A stretch of DNA of 45,593 bases, taken from contig JAGXBK010000005.1 of assembly GCA_018971195.1 (NCBI GenBank), forward strand, positions 1 to 45,593, in the 5' to 3' direction. Made by a program: the position numbers and the translations under genes. Origin of the DNA: Betaproteobacteria bacterium (lineage in GTDB: Bacteria; Pseudomonadota; Gammaproteobacteria; Burkholderiales; Casimicrobiaceae). The notes beneath the pieces are model-generated. The model had not been told where the DNA came from, ran no database searches, and saw only the letters and a list, made by a program, of their open reading frames with translations. Positions 28,082 to 37,420 of the stretch are shown here, piece after piece. Position 1 is the first letter of the stretch. Every line of letters starts with the position of its first letter.

Positions 28082-29962
28082 ATGCTGAGGCAGCGTCCGT
28101 ACCTCGTCGAAGCGCTGCTGGCGATCGGCCTGATCGCGGCGCCATTCATCCTTCCGCACCTGGGGTTTGCCCCCGACACGGTCAACCGCATCCTGGTCTG
28201 GGGACTGTTCGGCATCGGCTTCGACATCCTGTTCGGCTACACCGGTCTTCTTTCGTTCGGTCAGTCGGCGTTCTACGGCACCGGCGGATTCGTCGCGGCC
28301 TATCTGCTGACGCGGGCCGGATTCCCGTACGTCCTGCTCGCCCTGATCCTGGGGATGATCGCCGCCGCCGCTGTCGGCTTCCTGGTCGGGCTGGTGGCGT
28401 TGCGACGCACCGGCATCTACTTTGCGATGATCACGGTGGCGATCGCGGAGGTCTTCTACTTCGTCGAGTTCAATCCCCTTGCGCACTGGACGGGCGGCGA
28501 GAACGGCTTGCCCGGGGTGCCGGCGCCGACGCTCTACCTCGGCTTCGCCACGGTCCACATGAGCACCGGCTGGTCGCTCTATCCGTTCCTCGCGCTGTGC
28601 TATTTCATCGGCATCGTCGTCGCGCTGCGCATCGTGCGCTCGCCGGTGGGCGCGATCTTCAGCGCGATCCGCGAAAATCCGCTGCGCGCCGCGGCAGTCG
28701 GCCACAGCGTCCACACCTACAAGCTCGCCGCTTTCGTGATCGCCGCGGCCTATGCCGGCCTCGCAGGCGGATTGCTCGGCGTCCTGCAGGCGTTCATGCC
28801 GCCGGACGCCTTCACGTTCGAAACGTCGGGCCAGCTGGTGATCCTGACCGCCATCGGCGGCCGTGGCACGCTGTTCGGCCCGCTACTGGGCGCGACGATC
28901 TGGCTGTACCTCCAGGACTACCTGCAGGGATCGCTGGGCCTCGGCGCTTCGTGGAAGCTGGTGCTGGGGCTGGTGTTCGTGCTGCTCGTCGCCTTCCTGC
29001 GGCACGGCATCATCGGCGGCATCACGGACCTCTACCGCTGGGTGAGCGGCAGGGCGGCTCCGGCCGGCACGGAGGAAACCGCGTCGCTGCCCGGATTCGA
29101 AATCGGAGAGACCCAGGACGCGTCGGCGGCAGGAACCGGCCGCGCAGCGGCCGTGGCGCCGCCGCCGGCACGCAGGCGCCCGGCACCCGGGTTCACCGGC
29201 CCCATCCTGCACGCGACCGGGCTTTGCAAGTACTACGGCGGCGTCGTCGCCAACGCCGACATCGATTTCTCGGTGAACCGGGGCGAGCTGCGCGGCATCA
29301 TCGGTCCCAACGGCGCGGGCAAGAGCACATTCTTCAAGATGCTGACCTGCGAGGTGCCGCCCTCGTCGGGCAAGATCGTGTTCGAAGGCCGCGACATCAC
29401 CGGCAAGACGGTCACCGAGGTGTGCCAGCTCGGCCTGACCAAGAGCTACCAAGTCAACCAGCTCTTCAACCGGCTGACGGTGCGCGAAAACCTCACCATC
29501 GCCGCGCTCGCCGAGCTGCGTGGCAAGTTCAGGCTCGACCTGCTGCGCAGCCTTCGAACGTTTCCGGGTTTGCGCGAGCAGGTCGATCACACGCTCGAGC
29601 TCGTGAACCTGGTCGAGTGCCGCGACACGCCGGTAGCGCAGCTCGCCTATGGCGAGAAGCGGCGGCTGGAAGTGGGACTCGCGCTCGCCTCGTCGCCGAC
29701 GCTGTTGCTGCTGGACGAGCCGCTTGCGGGCATGAGCCCGAGCGAACGTGCCGAAACCGTGACGCTGCTGAGATCGATCGGCGAGGGACGCACGATGATC
29801 ATCATCGATCATGACATGGATGCCTTGTTCAACCTGGCCGAGCGCATCACCGTGCTGCAGGAGGGCCGCGTCCTGGTCGAAGGGACGCCGGACGAGATCA
29901 AGAGCAATGCCGCGGTGCAGGAAGCCTACCTGGGCGGCGTGCACGGAGTGATCGACGAATGA
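28082..29962 (+). CDS. Fused permease/ATP-binding protein (LivM-LivG)
   Basis: N-terminal GFDILFGYTGLLSFGQSAFYGTGG and GGRGTLFGPLLGA; C-terminal GPNGAGKSTFFKMLTCEV and AYGEKRRLEVGLALASSPTLLLLDEPLAGM in one uninterrupted 626 aa frame. Confidence 0.93.
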   Translation: MLRQRPYLVEALLAIGLIAAPFILPHLGFAPDTVNRILVWGLFGIGFDILFGYTGLLSFGQSAFYGTGGFVAAYLLTRAGFPYVLLALILGMIAAAAVGFLVGLVALRRTGIYFAMITVAIAEVFYFVEFNPLAHWTGGENGLPGVPAPTLYLGFATVHMSTGWSLYPFLALCYFIGIVVALRIVRSPVGAIFSAIRENPLRAAAVGHSVHTYKLAAFVIAAAYAGLAGGLLGVLQAFMPPDAFTFETSGQLVILTAIGGRGTLFGPLLGATIWLYLQDYLQGSLGLGASWKLVLGLVFVLLVAFLRHGIIGGITDLYRWVSGRAAPAGTEETASLPGFEIGETQDASAAGTGRAAAVAPPPARRRPAPGFTGPILHATGLCKYYGGVVANADIDFSVNRGELRGIIGPNGAGKSTFFKMLTCEVPPSSGKIVFEGRDITGKTVTEVCQLGLTKSYQVNQLFNRLTVRENLTIAALAELRGKFRLDLLRSLRTFPGLREQVDHTLELVNLVECRDTPVAQLAYGEKRRLEVGLALASSPTLLLLDEPLAGMSPSERAETVTLLRSIGEGRTMIIIDHDMDALFNLAERITVLQEGRVLVEGTPDEIKSNAAVQEAYLGGVHGVIDE

Positions 29963-29975
29963 CGGCCGCAAATGC

Positions 29976-30082
29976 GGGGGGCGTCACATGAGCGTCGCCG
30001 GGCCGTCCCAAGGCGCGAATTGCACCCCCTTCGGGGGCAGCGCCGCGGCGCCAGCCGCAAGCGTGGGGGGCGTCCGATGAGC
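29976..30082 (+). repeat. Repeat-like spacer flanked by 18-bp imperfect direct repeats GGGGGGCGTC(AC/CG)ATGAGC
   Basis: Copies at 29976-29993 and 30065-30082 (16/18 identical) enclosing a CCCCC-TTC-GGGGG hairpin and a 30-codon ORF (29988-30080). Confidence 0.65.
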
Positions 30083-30775
30083 CTGCTCGAAGCCGACGGG
30101 CTGAACAGCTACTACGGCGACTCCCACATCCTGTTCGACGTCTCGTTGCGCGTGGAGCGCAACGAGGTGGTGGCGCTGCTCGGGCGCAACGGCGCAGGCA
30201 AGAGCACGACGCTGAAGAGTCTGATGGGCGTGGTGACCCCGCGCAGCGGCTCGGTGAGGCTCGACGGGGTCGAGATCGCGGGGAAGAAGAGCCACGAGGT
30301 CGCGAAAGCCGGCATGCAGCTCGTGCACGAGGATCGCCGCATTTTCGGCAGCCTCGACGTCGAGGAAAACCTGATCCTCGCCGGGTTGACCGCTCCCCAG
30401 AGGTGGCCGCTCGATCGCATCTACGAGATGTTTCCGCGCTTGAAGGAGCGGCGCGGCAGCAGCGGCACCGACTTGTCGGGCGGAGAGCAGCAGATGCTGG
30501 CGATCGCGCGCGCATTGATCCGCGATCCCAAGGTCATCCTGCTGGACGAGCCTTTCGAGGGGCTCGCGCCGGTGATCGTCAAGACGCTGATGGTCGCATG
30601 CCGCGAGCTCGCCGCCGCAGGGCAGACGATCGTACTGGTGGAGCAGAACCTCGCCGCGACGCTGGCACTGGCGCAGCGCGTCTACATCATCAACAACGGG
30701 CACATCGTGCACGACGGGCCTGCCGAGGAGATCAAGGCCCAGCCGGCCCTGCTGCAGCGTTACCTCGGCGTTTGA
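30077..30775 (+). CDS. Branched-chain-type ABC transporter ATP-binding protein (LivF family)
   Basis: ALLGRNGAGKSTTLKSLMGV; LSGGEQQMLAIARALIRDPKVILLDEPFEGLAP. Confidence 0.93.
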   Translation: MSLLEADGLNSYYGDSHILFDVSLRVERNEVVALLGRNGAGKSTTLKSLMGVVTPRSGSVRLDGVEIAGKKSHEVAKAGMQLVHEDRRIFGSLDVEENLILAGLTAPQRWPLDRIYEMFPRLKERRGSSGTDLSGGEQQMLAIARALIRDPKVILLDEPFEGLAPVIVKTLMVACRELAAAGQTIVLVEQNLAATLALAQRVYIINNGHIVHDGPAEEIKAQPALLQRYLGV

Positions 30776-32493: not shown

Positions 32494-33939
32494 ATGGATG
32501 AACGCAGTGCCCGTGATGTCGTGCTGGTCCAGGCGATCGAGACCGCCGACACTGCCCGGACGGTCTGGCGCGATGGCGATCGCATCGCCGTCGGCCAGGC
32601 TGCGGCGCAGGAGGTGGGCGAACGAGCGACCCCCGACGCATATCTGGGCCGCCGCGCGGCGCTCGCCCTGTCGGCGCTCGAGGCGCGCGACCCGCGGCTG
32701 CGCGCGCTGCGCGGGCGCAATCCCGCGGGCGGGACCGGTGTCGCCATCGCCAGCGCGGTCGCGTTCGTCGCCGGTGTCGCGGTCGCCCACATCGGCCCGA
32801 CGCACAGGATCAACCTGCTCGCGCCGCCGGTGCTCGTGCTGCTCGCGTGGAACGTCGCCGTGTACGCACTGCTCGTCGTCGCGCTCGCCTCGTCCTGGCG
32901 TGGCGCGCATCGGTCGCCTCCGCCGGGACTGCGCAGCTCGCTCGCGAAATGGCTCGGCGCCCTCCCGCGCGCGTGGCACCGTGCCGCGAATGCGGGCCCG
33001 CTCGCGGGCGCCGCCACCACCTTCATCGCCAACTGGACGCGACTCGCGGCGCCCCTGTGGCGGCGCCGGGCGACCTGTGTCCTGCACGTCGCGGCGGCGG
33101 CGTTCGCGATCGGGGAGATCGGGGGCCTCTACCTGCGCGGGATCGCGCTCGAATACCGGGCGGCGTGGGAAAGCACGTTCCTCGATGCCGCCGACGTCGC
33201 GCGCGTCCTGCACGTCGTGCTCGCACCCGGCGCGTTGATCACCGGCATCGCCGTTCCCGGCACGGATGCGCTGCGGGCGCTGGGCCCCGCGAGCGCGGGG
33301 GAGAACGCAGCACGCTGGATCCACCTGTACGCCGGCACCATCGTCGCCGTCGTCGTCGTTCCGAGGCTCGTGCTGGCCGCGATCGCGTGGATGCAGGCGC
33401 AGACCCTGTCCCGGCAATTCCCGTTGCAACTCGACGCGCCTTACTTCGGGCGCATGCTGCGCGCGTGGCGCGCAGGGACCGCACAGGTGTTCGCCGTGCC
33501 GTACAGCTACGACGTGCCGGCGCAGGCGGCGGCGGGCCTGAAGGCAGTGCTGTCGCGGGCATTCGAATCGCCGGTCATCCTCGACTGGTCGGCTGTGGTT
33601 CGCTACGGCGACGACGCGCCGCCTTCGCCCCGTGCATCGGCGGCCGCCGTCGTCATCGTGTTCAGCCTTGCCGCGACCCCCGAAGCCGAAAACCATGGCG
33701 CGATCGTCGGCCGGCTCGCGGCGCGCTCACCGGGCATCCCGCTGCTCGCGATTGTCGACACCTCCGAGTTCGAGGCGCGCTTTCGCGAGGTCCCGCAGCG
33801 GGTGGCAGAGCGCGAGGCGGCCTGGCGCCAGGTGCTCGAGGCGCGCGGCGCATCGCCGCTGTTCATCGCGTTGGCGCAGCCGGATCTCGCGGCCGCGGCG
33901 GCATCGTTCAACGCCGCGCTCGAGCGGACGACGCGATGA
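32494..33939 (+). CDS. DUF2868-like multi-TM membrane protein
   Basis: N-terminal RDVVLVQAIETAD; about four TM helices; soluble C-terminal domain; coupled (ATGA) to the DUF3482-like GTPase gene. Confidence 0.78.
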   Translation: MDERSARDVVLVQAIETADTARTVWRDGDRIAVGQAAAQEVGERATPDAYLGRRAALALSALEARDPRLRALRGRNPAGGTGVAIASAVAFVAGVAVAHIGPTHRINLLAPPVLVLLAWNVAVYALLVVALASSWRGAHRSPPPGLRSSLAKWLGALPRAWHRAANAGPLAGAATTFIANWTRLAAPLWRRRATCVLHVAAAAFAIGEIGGLYLRGIALEYRAAWESTFLDAADVARVLHVVLAPGALITGIAVPGTDALRALGPASAGENAARWIHLYAGTIVAVVVVPRLVLAAIAWMQAQTLSRQFPLQLDAPYFGRMLRAWRAGTAQVFAVPYSYDVPAQAAAGLKAVLSRAFESPVILDWSAVVRYGDDAPPSPRASAAAVVIVFSLAATPEAENHGAIVGRLAARSPGIPLLAIVDTSEFEARFREVPQRVAEREAAWRQVLEARGASPLFIALAQPDLAAAAASFNAALERTTR

Positions 33940-35447
33940 GCGAGCCGGGCCGGGCGGGCGAATGCCCAGCGCCGGGCGCGGTCCTTGCAACGGATGGATC
34001 GCCGCAGCAGATCGCACTGTCGCTGGTCTCGCACACCAATGCGGGCAAGACGACGCTGGCGCGCACGCTGCTCGGTCGCGATGTAGGCGAGGTGCGGGAC
34101 GCCGCGCACGTCACCACCTCGGCCGAGCGCCACGTGATGATCGAGACGGCGCAAGGCGATGCGCTTTCGCTGTGGGACACCCCCGGCTTCGGGGACAGCG
34201 CACGCCTCGGGCGGCGGCTCGCCGCTCTCGACAACCCGATCCTTGAATTCCTCGCTTCCAGCTGGGACCGGTGGCGCGATCGCCCGTTCTGGTCGAGCCA
34301 GCAGGCGGTGAGGAACGTTCGCGAGCGTGCCGACGTCGTCCTCTATCTCGTCAATGCGTCGGAACGTCCGCAGGACGCCGGTTATCTCGCGCCCGAGATG
34401 CAGATCCTCGAATGGATCGGAAAGCCCGTCGTCGTCTTGCTCAACCAGATCGGAGTGCCGCGCGGGCCGGCCGACGACGCCGCCGACATCGCGCGCTGGC
34501 GCAATGCGCTCGGTGCGAGGCCGATCATCCGCGGCGTGCTGGCGCTCGACGCCTTCGCGCGCTGCTGGGTGCAGGAGCGCACGCTGCTGCGCGCTGTCGC
34601 CGCCGCGTTGCCGGCGTCGCGACAGGAGGCTTTCGCGCGCCTCGCGTCGGCGTGGCAGGCGGCGCGCGAGCGGCAGTTCGACCAAGCGATGGCTGCGATC
34701 GCGCTGCCGATCGCCCGCGCGGCCTGCGATCGCGAGGGCCTGCCGGACGCCGGGTTCAGGGGTTCGCTGCGCGAGGTCGGGAAGGCGATGGGCATTCCCG
34801 GTCGCGACGGGGGCACGAAGGAGGCAGCGATGTCCGCGCTTGCGCTGCGCCTCGACGCCGACCTGCGCGCCAGCACCGACCGGCTGATCGCGATCCACCG
34901 GCTCGAAGGCCGGGCGGCCGCCGAGGTGACCGCCCGGCTCGCCGACAGCGTTGTCACCGACGCGCCGGTCGACGAGCGCAAGGCCGCAGTCGTCGGCGGA
35001 TTCGTGTCGGGCGCGCTGACGGGCCTCGCCACGGATCTCGCGGCGGGCGGACTGACGTTCGGCGCCGGACTCCTGGCGGGCGGGGTGGTCGGGGCGCTCG
35101 GCGCAGCCGGACTGGCGCGGGGATTCAACCTGGTGCGCGGCACGACCGAATCGTCGCTGCGCTGGACCGACGAATTCATCGCCGCCCTGGTGCCCGCCGC
35201 GATCCTGCGCTACCTGGCAGTCGCGCATTACGGCCGCGGCCGCGGCGAGTGGACGGCGAGCGAGCACCCCGCGATCTGGCGCAATGCCGTCGAGGCGACG
35301 ATCGCGCGCCGCGCACAGCTATCGACGGCATCGCCATGGACGCAGCGCGCAGGGGGCTGCGATCCCGAGCGCCTGGCGGGGCAGGTCGCCGCGATGCTGC
35401 GCGACATCGCGCGCGAGGTGCTCGACACGCTCTACCCGGCGGCCTGA
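33936..35447 (+). CDS. GTPase with DUF3482-like C-terminal region
   Basis: SLVSHTNAGKTTLARTLLGRDVG (P-loop), DTPGFGD (G3), LLNQIG (G4-like); Gly/Ala-rich hydrophobic segment GGFVSGALTGLATDLAAGGLTFGAGLLAGGVVGALG. Confidence 0.8.
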   Translation: MSEPGRAGECPAPGAVLATDGSPQQIALSLVSHTNAGKTTLARTLLGRDVGEVRDAAHVTTSAERHVMIETAQGDALSLWDTPGFGDSARLGRRLAALDNPILEFLASSWDRWRDRPFWSSQQAVRNVRERADVVLYLVNASERPQDAGYLAPEMQILEWIGKPVVVLLNQIGVPRGPADDAADIARWRNALGARPIIRGVLALDAFARCWVQERTLLRAVAAALPASRQEAFARLASAWQAARERQFDQAMAAIALPIARAACDREGLPDAGFRGSLREVGKAMGIPGRDGGTKEAAMSALALRLDADLRASTDRLIAIHRLEGRAAAEVTARLADSVVTDAPVDERKAAVVGGFVSGALTGLATDLAAGGLTFGAGLLAGGVVGALGAAGLARGFNLVRGTTESSLRWTDEFIAALVPAAILRYLAVAHYGRGRGEWTASEHPAIWRNAVEATIARRAQLSTASPWTQRAGGCDPERLAGQVAAMLRDIAREVLDTLYPAA

Positions 35448-35472: not shown

Positions 35473-36039
35473 TCATGGCCCGAACAATGCCTTCGACGCC
35501 GGCGGATAGGTGACGACCAGGCCATCGACCTGCGCGAAGGGCGTGAGCCGGTGCACCGATGTCCGCTGCGCGCCGACGATGTCCTCGACGCGGATTCCGC
35601 GCACCGTCAGCGCATCGGCGATCAACGACCGGTGGCAGCGCCAGGGCACGGCCTCGGCGCACATCAGCGCGCAGCGCTCGCGCGCCGCATCAGCGACCAC
35701 CCGGGCGACCCCGGCCGCGAATGCAGCGGTCTGCATGTAGTCGGCATAGCCGCGAAACGAAGGATTGCGCCAGCCCGTGTTGCGGGAGTCCGCGACCGCG
35801 TGCCGCAGGCCTCCGAGTTCCGGCATGTGGACGTAGCCGATGCCTGCCGCGGCAAGGGCGCCGGGGAGCGATTCGCGATTGAACTGCGGGTTGTGGCGCG
35901 AGCGAGGGACCGTGCGCACGTCGAGGAGCAGGTTGATGCGGTGCCGCGCGAGCAGTGCCATGAACTCCGGCAACGGCCGTGTCGAGTGGCCGATCGTCCA
36001 GACGGTGTCGGGGACGGTGTCCCCCGGAATCGCAGGCAT
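35473..36039 (-). CDS. DUF488 domain-containing protein
   Basis: VWTIGHSTRPLPEFMALLARHRINLLLDVRTVPRSRHNPQFN; CAEAVPWRCHRSLIADAL. Confidence 0.92.
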   Translation of the reverse strand: MPAIPGDTVPDTVWTIGHSTRPLPEFMALLARHRINLLLDVRTVPRSRHNPQFNRESLPGALAAAGIGYVHMPELGGLRHAVADSRNTGWRNPSFRGYADYMQTAAFAAGVARVVADAARERCALMCAEAVPWRCHRSLIADALTVRGIRVEDIVGAQRTSVHRLTPFAQVDGLVVTYPPASKALFGP

Positions 36040-36115
36040 CGTCGCCACAGCATAGCGGAGGCCGCTGGCCGGGTCCTTGCCAGACGCAAGACGGACGGCG
36101 GACAATGCGCGCGCA

Positions 36116-37420
36116 ATGACCAAACCCCGCACACATCAGTTCGACACGCTGTCGCTGCACGCGGGCTCGCGTCCCGATCCGGCGACCGGTGCACGGGCGA
36201 CGCCGATCTACCAGACGGCGTCGTTCGTGTTCCCGGACACCGATCACGCAGCGGCGCTGTTCAACATGGAGCGGGCGGGCTACGTCTATTCGCGGATCTC
36301 CAACCCGACCTGCGCAGTGCTCGAGGAGCGCATCGCCGCGCTCGAAGGCGGCGCGGGCGCGATCGCGACCGCCAGCGGGCAGGCGGCACTGCACCTCGCC
36401 ATCGTCACGCTGCTGTCCGCGGGCTCGCACATCGTGGCATCGCGCTCGCTGTACGGCGGCTCGCACAACTTGCTCGCCTACACGCTGCCGCGCTTCGGCA
36501 TCGACACGACCTTCGTCGATCCGCGCGACATCGACGCCTGGCGCGCGGCCATCCGACCGCAGACCCGGCTGCTGTTCGGCGAGACGCTGGGCAATCCGCG
36601 GCTCGAGGTCCTCGACATCCCGACCGTGGCGTCGCTCGCCCATGACCACGGCCTGCCGCTGCTCGTCGATTCGACGTTCACGACGCCATGGCTGATCCGG
36701 CCTTTCGAGCATGGGGCCGACCTCGTTTTCCATTCGGCGACCAAGTTCCTGTCGGGACATGGCGTGGTAATCGGCGGCCTGCTCGTCGACTCGGGGAGCT
36801 TCGACTGGAACGCCGATGGGACCCGCGAGAAATTCCCTGCGCTGACCGAGCCTTACGCAGGCTTTCACGACATGGTCTTCGCCGAGGAGTCGACGACGGC
36901 TGCGTTCCTGCTGCGCGCCCGTCGCGAGGGCATCCGCGATTTCGGTGCGTGCATGGCGCCGACGACGGCGTTCCAGATCCTGCAGGGGATCGAGACGCTA
37001 CCGGTGCGCATGGCGCGCCACGTCGAGAACGCACGGGTAATCGTCGATTTCCTGCGCGACCACCCGCTGGTTGCCGGCGTCGGCTACCCCGGGCTGCCCG
37101 ATCATCCCGATCATGCCCTCGCGAAGAAGCTGCTGCCTCGCGGCTGCGGCGCGGTGTTCAGCTTCGACCTGCGCGGCACGCGCGAGCAGGGGCGGCGCTT
37201 CATCGAGGCGCTGCGCCTGTTCTCGCACCTCGCGAACGTCGGCGACGCGAAATCGCTGGTGATCCATCCTGCGTCGACGACGCATTTCCGGATGTCGTCC
37301 GAGGACCTGCTGCGAGCGGGGATCACCGAGGGGGCGATCCGGCTGTCGATCGGCCTCGAGGATCCATCCGACCTGATCGAGGACCTGTCGCGGGCGCTGT
37401 ACGCGGCAGGCAAGCCCTGA
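36116..37420 (+). CDS. metY: O-acetyl/O-succinylhomoserine sulfhydrylase-type PLP enzyme
   Basis: DTLSLHAGSRPDPATGARATPIYQTASFVF; YSRISNPTCAVLEERIAALEGG; HSATKFLSGHG PLP lysine. Confidence 0.85.
   Translation: MTKPRTHQFDTLSLHAGSRPDPATGARATPIYQTASFVFPDTDHAAALFNMERAGYVYSRISNPTCAVLEERIAALEGGAGAIATASGQAALHLAIVTLLSAGSHIVASRSLYGGSHNLLAYTLPRFGIDTTFVDPRDIDAWRAAIRPQTRLLFGETLGNPRLEVLDIPTVASLAHDHGLPLLVDSTFTTPWLIRPFEHGADLVFHSATKFLSGHGVVIGGLLVDSGSFDWNADGTREKFPALTEPYAGFHDMVFAEESTTAAFLLRARREGIRDFGACMAPTTAFQILQGIETLPVRMARHVENARVIVDFLRDHPLVAGVGYPGLPDHPDHALAKKLLPRGCGAVFSFDLRGTREQGRRFIEALRLFSHLANVGDAKSLVIHPASTTHFRMSSEDLLRAGITEGAIRLSIGLEDPSDLIEDLSRALYAAGKP

Follow-up and report, generated by a model that had tools for sequence, protein, structure and literature searches.

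A linked DUF2868 membrane protein and DUF3482 Era-like NTPase form a candidate two-gene inner-membrane system

The two overlapping genes described here lie in a window of 45,593 nucleotides of betaproteobacterial DNA (the whole stretch that was analysed), and encode a DUF2868 membrane protein and a DUF3482 P-loop NTPase. Their constant co-occurrence across genomes, together with their joint transfer between phyla, indicates that the two proteins very probably act jointly, as a single machine at the membrane. Among DUF2868-DUF3482 pairs, the one in the window is a divergent variant, of which no separate description was found. DUF2868 and DUF3482 are catalogued solely as unknowns: our literature search found no functional study of either, but one in-silico list (PMC12864544) and the proteomics mention cited below.

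Gene structure and linkage

The original prediction located and paired the two genes exactly (Table 1), with ATG codons at 32494 and 33936 and ends at 33939 and 35447, the start codon of the NTPase gene sitting inside the stop of the DUF2868 gene (ATGA). Both flanking genes are on the opposite strand: a radical-SAM gene upstream (31478 to about 32412) and, on the downstream side, one for DUF488 (35473-36132). The pair thus stands as an isolated two-gene unit. A promoter and terminator scan found nothing. Elsewhere in the window, a single long ORF (28082-29962) appears from its translation to be a permease of the branched-chain amino-acid ABC type fused to its ATPase, and is followed by a second ATPase, also read from translation, at 29972-30775.

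The family assignment is borne out by Pfam matches over the cut-off. DUF2868 (PF11067) is matched at 46.9 bits (cut-off 26.8) over residues 173-364, a divergent match to profile positions 10-198 of 315. The second protein matches MMR_HSR1 at 41.7 bits (cut-off 21.9, residues 30-171) and, C-terminal to it, DUF3482 (PF11981) at 53.3 bits (cut-off 29.2, residues 199-455). No NCBIfam model is passed by either protein, and a PDB sequence search returned no relative of either in its whole length.

Table 1. Features of the DUF2868-DUF3482 pair, in window positions
Feature	Position	Strand	Basis
DUF2868 protein, 481 aa	32494..33939	+	Pfam, AlphaFold2, averaged hydropathy/charge, conserved residues
DUF2868 C-terminal alpha/beta domain, aa 328-481, about 150 aa, predicted G-protein-like fold	33475..33936	+	Foldseek
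ATGA start-stop overlap of 4 nt, coupling both genes	33936..33939	+	Sequence
MMR_HSR1 + DUF3482 P-loop NTPase, 503 aa	33936..35447	+	Pfam; fold matches to Era, EngA, MnmE
G1/P-loop SHTNAGKTT, aa 32-40	34029..34055	+	No variation at H33-N35 or G37-T40 across 64 homologues
G3 DTPGFGD, aa 81-87	34176..34196	+	D81-G86 invariant, D87 in 63/64
G4 NQIG, aa 170-173, without the Asp of NKxD	34443..34454	+	NQxG in 64/64
G5-position segment DAFARCWVQE, aa 205-214	34548..34577	+	All residues but C210 unchanged across 64 homologues
Gly/Ala-rich charge-poor segment, aa 343-398, conserved DLxxGGxTxG	34962..35129	+	Composition, conservation

Linkage of the two genes was measured in three genome samples (class, order and phylum levels; 557 genomes), each scanned with both Pfam models. 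DUF3482 passed the cut-off in 12 of the 229 genomes of the class sample and DUF2868 in exactly the same 12; both were found in the same 23 of 249 genomes at the phylum level. At the order level (n=100), DUF3482 was present in 13 genomes and DUF2868 in 14, the additional genome (G258, locus L053) having a GTPase that begins at the 4-nt overlap and is cut by the contig end. Altogether, DUF2868 occurs in 42 of the 557 genomes; 41 of these have DUF3482 over the cut-off, the remaining one being the contig-end case, and in all 42 the two genes are neighbours on the same contig and strand. Given this concordance in all three samples, the pair is not due to chance, and the co-occurrence on which the original prediction depended is confirmed.

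When the proteins of 84,980 species genomes were scanned, 317 relatives of the GTPase emerged. Each of the 80 loci retained from genome contigs has DUF2868 on the upstream side, in most cases immediately next to the GTPase gene. The overlap was measured at 88 loci and is exactly 4 nt in 59 of them. An additional gene separates the two at some loci: a DUF4124 gene at L109, and an Abi_2 gene (PF07751, E 4e-55) at a Lautropia locus (L127 6757-7878). The two protein trees mirror each other with r=0.88, a value reached by 0 of 1000 permutations and to which common descent alone contributes part. DUF3482 matches under the cut-off were considered as further relatives and rejected: frames could be recovered for two of three, and each encodes a small protein rich in Gly, in one case ending in an OmpA-like domain.

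At about 54 loci whose surroundings were surveyed, the neighbouring genes have nothing to do with one another and are mostly metabolic. This survey, which the original prediction had proposed, shows a recurrent pair and no third gene in common, the commonest neighbouring family accounting for only 4 of 81 upstream and 3 of 95 downstream proteins. Nothing among the surveyed neighbours points to envelope stress, a role raised speculatively beforehand. The system thus consists of two genes, with nothing else in common.

Two subfamilies and transfer between phyla

In the tree, the window pair falls in a divergent clade, mostly of Betaproteobacteria (Accumulibacter, Zoogloea, Lautropia, Comamonadaceae), which is well separated from the Pseudomonas-type, or canonical, pairs. 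The two types share both domains, the gene order and the adjacency of the genes. In profile comparison (hhalign), their G domains align at 99.9% probability (E 5.7e-37); for the membrane parts of their DUF2868 proteins the figure is 99.6%. They differ in G3 and G4, which read DTPGxE and NFxx in the Pseudomonas type and DTPGFGD and NQxG in the window type, and in Pfam score (47-53 bits for the window pair, up to 354-388 in the canonical branch).

A clear GTPase match was present in 8 of the 10 genomes sampled from the window's own genus, whereas the sister genera are mostly devoid of it. The best-scoring canonical matches come from a large gammaproteobacterial family (f161, probably Pseudomonadaceae) with at least seven sampled carriers and no member listed without the pair; in another genus, 43 of 50 species carry the canonical type. 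By gene order, we take the canonical pair of P. aeruginosa PAO1 to be PA0345-PA0344. A proteomics study mentions PA0344 as lower in a small-colony variant (PMC3240657).

The whole pair, of the betaproteobacterial type, is also carried by Agromyces (nine species in the tree) and by a Thermoleophilia metagenome bin (loci L093, L106, L111, L113, L120, L125, L126, L128, L134 and L107). Most of the Agromyces sequences belong to strains that have been named, and their contigs reach more than 1 megabase. These actinobacterial pairs are nested among Betaproteobacteria in both protein trees: the actinobacterial group has 98-99% SH-aLRT support, and the 28-row clade that it forms with Betaproteobacteria 99%, in quick trees that have some long branches. 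Since the nesting is found for both proteins, the operon was transferred between phyla in one piece. That hosts devoid of an outer membrane have kept it favours a site of action at the cytoplasmic membrane and speaks against any role peculiar to the outer one. The original prediction of a recurrent pair with no assigned function stands, and the pair extends beyond the proteobacteria named there, Actinobacteria being carriers too.

Mobile elements gave a few hits, which were rejected as evidence of carriage. The only plasmid hits (NZ_CP119142.1 and NZ_CP119140.1) are full-size Neisseria gonorrhoeae chromosomes (2.17 Mb) filed as plasmids. The unverified record 'Pseudomonas phage Y10' (L156; OQ572411.1 13265-25876) holds a piece of P. 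aeruginosa chromosome, in which thyA-like, lgt-like and GDPD genes accompany the pair, and looks contaminated or misassembled. In the Moraxella phage hit, the pair gene is in the host flank, outside attR. The annotated prophage attR of this Moraxella catarrhalis locus (L155 3420-3465; KR093633.1 33556-33601), TGTGTACATAATTGTGTACATA, ends 23 bp before the canonical DUF3482 gene, so that prophages integrate immediately upstream of this gene in M. catarrhalis. At an IMG/VR locus (L054 1206-7707), the complete pair is followed some 2 kb downstream by a tyrosine integrase and, further on, by a D12 DNA methyltransferase; this is probably the edge of a prophage or island beside the pair.

The NTPase

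Motif conservation was scored over 64 homologues. The SHTNAGKTT, DTPGFGD and NQIG motifs read in the original prediction are all present, and are invariant or nearly so. In G1, the block HTNxGKTTLAR does not vary, the first Gly being replaced by Ser in the window branch, and the switch-I Thr60 (G2) is likewise invariant. The G domain alone finds structural matches, to Era (Foldseek, E 7e-6), EngA and MnmE. With a G1 Asn and GKT, a G3 DxxG and an Era-like fold, it has the marks of the TrmE-Era-EngA-Septin-like (TEES) group, and we classify the DUF3482 protein as an Era-like P-loop NTPase of the TRAFAC class, with predicted hydrolytic activity.

The unusual G4, already read as departing from NKxD, departs from it throughout the family: the window branch has NQxG and NFxx is aligned there in the canonical branch, so that the guanine-reading Asp is absent from both and neither carries the [NT]KxD of GTP-specific GTPases. 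An invariant Asp205 lies where the final strand of the G domain ends, which is the G5 position (LDAF), in a region aligned with FDSV of P. aeruginosa (hhalign, 99.9%). This residue may replace the G4 Asp in base recognition; alternatively, the NTPase may not be GTP-specific. GTPases activated by K+, such as MnmE, FeoB and EngA, have two asparagines, one in G1 and one five residues after the G1 Lys (PMC3466195), and Asn11 of FeoB is such a K+-site asparagine (PMC3153494). In the window NTPase the first is N35, while the second position is occupied by an invariant Arg43, and K+ activation should therefore not be assumed.

The G domain is followed by a helical arm and then by the Gly/Ala-rich segment. 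The latter, announced as hydrophobic and possibly membrane-binding, does exist and is charge-poor by composition: residues 343-398 contain 53% G/A/S and 10% charged residues, against 24-29% charged elsewhere in the protein. Its DLxxGGxTxG motif is common to both subfamilies, and AlphaFold2 pLDDT is under 50 across it. Glycine-zipper spacing is not significantly enriched in the segment (6 i,i+4 Gly pairs for 3.5 expected, P=0.07).

The DUF2868 protein

The multi-span protein with a soluble C-terminus that had been anticipated takes the form of four predicted spans followed by the alpha/beta domain. Hydropathy averaged over 64 homologues places the spans near residues 82-100, 113-131, 196-214 and 278-296, after a helical N-terminus (residues 1-80) predicted to be cytosolic. 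The loop 131-196 is strongly basic (net +8.7), so that by the positive-inside rule both termini should be cytosolic (N-in/C-in). Within the putative extracytoplasmic loop 215-272, WESTFL (225-230) is conserved, as are W275 and P290-R291 in or beside the fourth span; W-x-[ST]-T, W275 and LPR are also found in the Pseudomonas-type branch.

The AlphaFold2 model has a mean pLDDT of 92.6 and a pTM of 0.88. At the level of domains, the best Foldseek match of residues 328-481 is Rheb (probability 1.00, TMt 0.54, E 0.042); Rem2, EF-Tu and CENP-M are matched as well, and flavodoxin-like folds more weakly. The domain is devoid of a P-loop and has ATPE (TPE 395-397) at the position of the partner's G3 DTPG. 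No kinship to the G domain of the partner emerged when the two profiles were compared (hhalign probability 0.04%), and searches of PDB and Pfam with the domain sequence matched no known family. A G fold that does not bind nucleotide is known from CENP-M. With moderate confidence, and from its predicted fold, we read this domain as a candidate pseudo-GTPase. CENP-M and SRP receptor beta have a G-protein fold of the kind predicted here, whereas the DUF2868 domain is bacterial, is carried on a four-span protein and has no detectable sequence kinship with either.

Discussion

How could such a pair work? We propose that the two obligate partners constitute a self-contained switch of the inner membrane. 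The NTPase would cycle between nucleotide states, with a rebuilt base recognition (no Asp at G4, an Asp at the G5 position), and would touch the bilayer with its helical arm and the Gly/Ala-rich segment. In one nucleotide state it would dock on the C-terminal domain of DUF2868, a G domain facing a pseudo-G domain, and once docked it would switch the four-span part; we infer these two steps, and the direction in which the signal would travel. The arrangement would roughly be that of FeoB, in which a G domain drives a polytopic membrane part, split here over two chains. Such a nucleotide-switched inner-membrane complex, with G/pseudo-G docking and FeoB-like switching, is in our judgment on an even footing between right and wrong.

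The comparison with FeoB, whose K+-activated G domain is joined to its polytopic part, has its limits. The P-loop Asn and the membrane partner are shared, and the switch logic would by analogy be the same. In contrast to FeoB, however, the window proteins are separate chains, no FeoB membrane domain is present, the second K+ asparagine is an Arg and the G4 Asp is missing. We also suggest, tentatively and with more doubt, that the pair represents a new class of machine: a heterotypic G/pseudo-G couple, gated by nucleotide, in which the guanine-reading Asp has moved from G4 to G5 or the specificity has changed, and which travels between phyla as a two-gene unit.

Two other scenarios are the main rivals of a nucleotide switch. 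The NTPase may bring a client (a protein, cofactor or lipid) to DUF2868, in the manner of the SRP receptor or of HydF. SRP receptor beta is a membrane-anchored protein of G-protein fold, and a membrane-borne G fold facing a soluble GTPase would recall it; weak matches of the NTPase to the HydF, Era and EngA profiles, below the passing score in the NCBIfam search, point the same way. No recurrent cofactor or secretion genes were found among the surveyed neighbours, however, and we consider a client-delivering receptor rather unlikely. Alternatively, in line with the remodelling role put forward in the original prediction, the NTPase might insert its Gly/Ala-rich segment, oligomerise and bend or repair the inner membrane, DUF2868 serving as an anchor. 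The charge-poor segment with its conserved motif and the long helical arm would suit such remodelling. As in LeoABC and the bacterial dynamin-like proteins, the genes form an operon with a possible action on membranes, and a weak PADLOC match to LeoBC/LeoA (LeoBC 2e-9) is in agreement with this. That match is limited to the G domain, however, Dynamin_N reaches only 13.7 bits on the NTPase (under the cut-off of 27), the fold matches listed include no dynamin-like structure, and the partner is polytopic, with conserved residues within and outside its membrane part that suggest more than an anchor. Remodelling seems to us a weaker candidate still than client delivery, with a small probability.

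The remaining two scenarios are unlikely. As a ribosome-linked GTPase of the Era/EngA type, merely tethered to the membrane by DUF2868, the NTPase would account for its G domain being nearest to Era, EngA and MnmE by fold and profile, and it shares the G-domain fold, G3 DxxG and G1 Asn with Era, EngA, MnmE and HydF. It differs from them in its altered G4 and its DUF3482 tail; the Pfam scan detected no KH or other RNA-binding domain, and neither a TrmE-N nor an iron-sulphur domain was found. Such a tail, and a partner in the membrane that is always present, set it apart from the ribosome GTPases known so far, and we tend to exclude this hypothesis most firmly of all. Almost as improbable is an anti-phage system, a standalone mobile two-gene unit that would damage the membrane upon infection. 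Its patchy presence across many families, its transfer between phyla and the Abi_2 gene inserted at the Lautropia locus could be expected of a defence system. Nevertheless, the raw PADLOC matches among 176 neighbour proteins are scattered and mostly generic, and PADLOC holds no family for the pair and no full-length match to it. Moreover, the pair is present in all of the at least seven sampled members of f161 and in the 43 of 50 species mentioned above, and is absent from plasmids, as well as from phages apart from host flanks.

Returning to the nucleotide switch that we propose, the absence of the G4 Asp raises the question of which nucleotide is chosen. If the DUF2868 tail is indeed a pseudo-G domain, the pair would be a clear case of a bacterial GTPase coupled to a membrane-borne pseudo-GTPase, and would count as a novel type of GTPase machine in bacteria. 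As neither gene is found without the other, no third gene is common to the loci and hosts devoid of an outer membrane carry the pair, two orphan families become one testable system.
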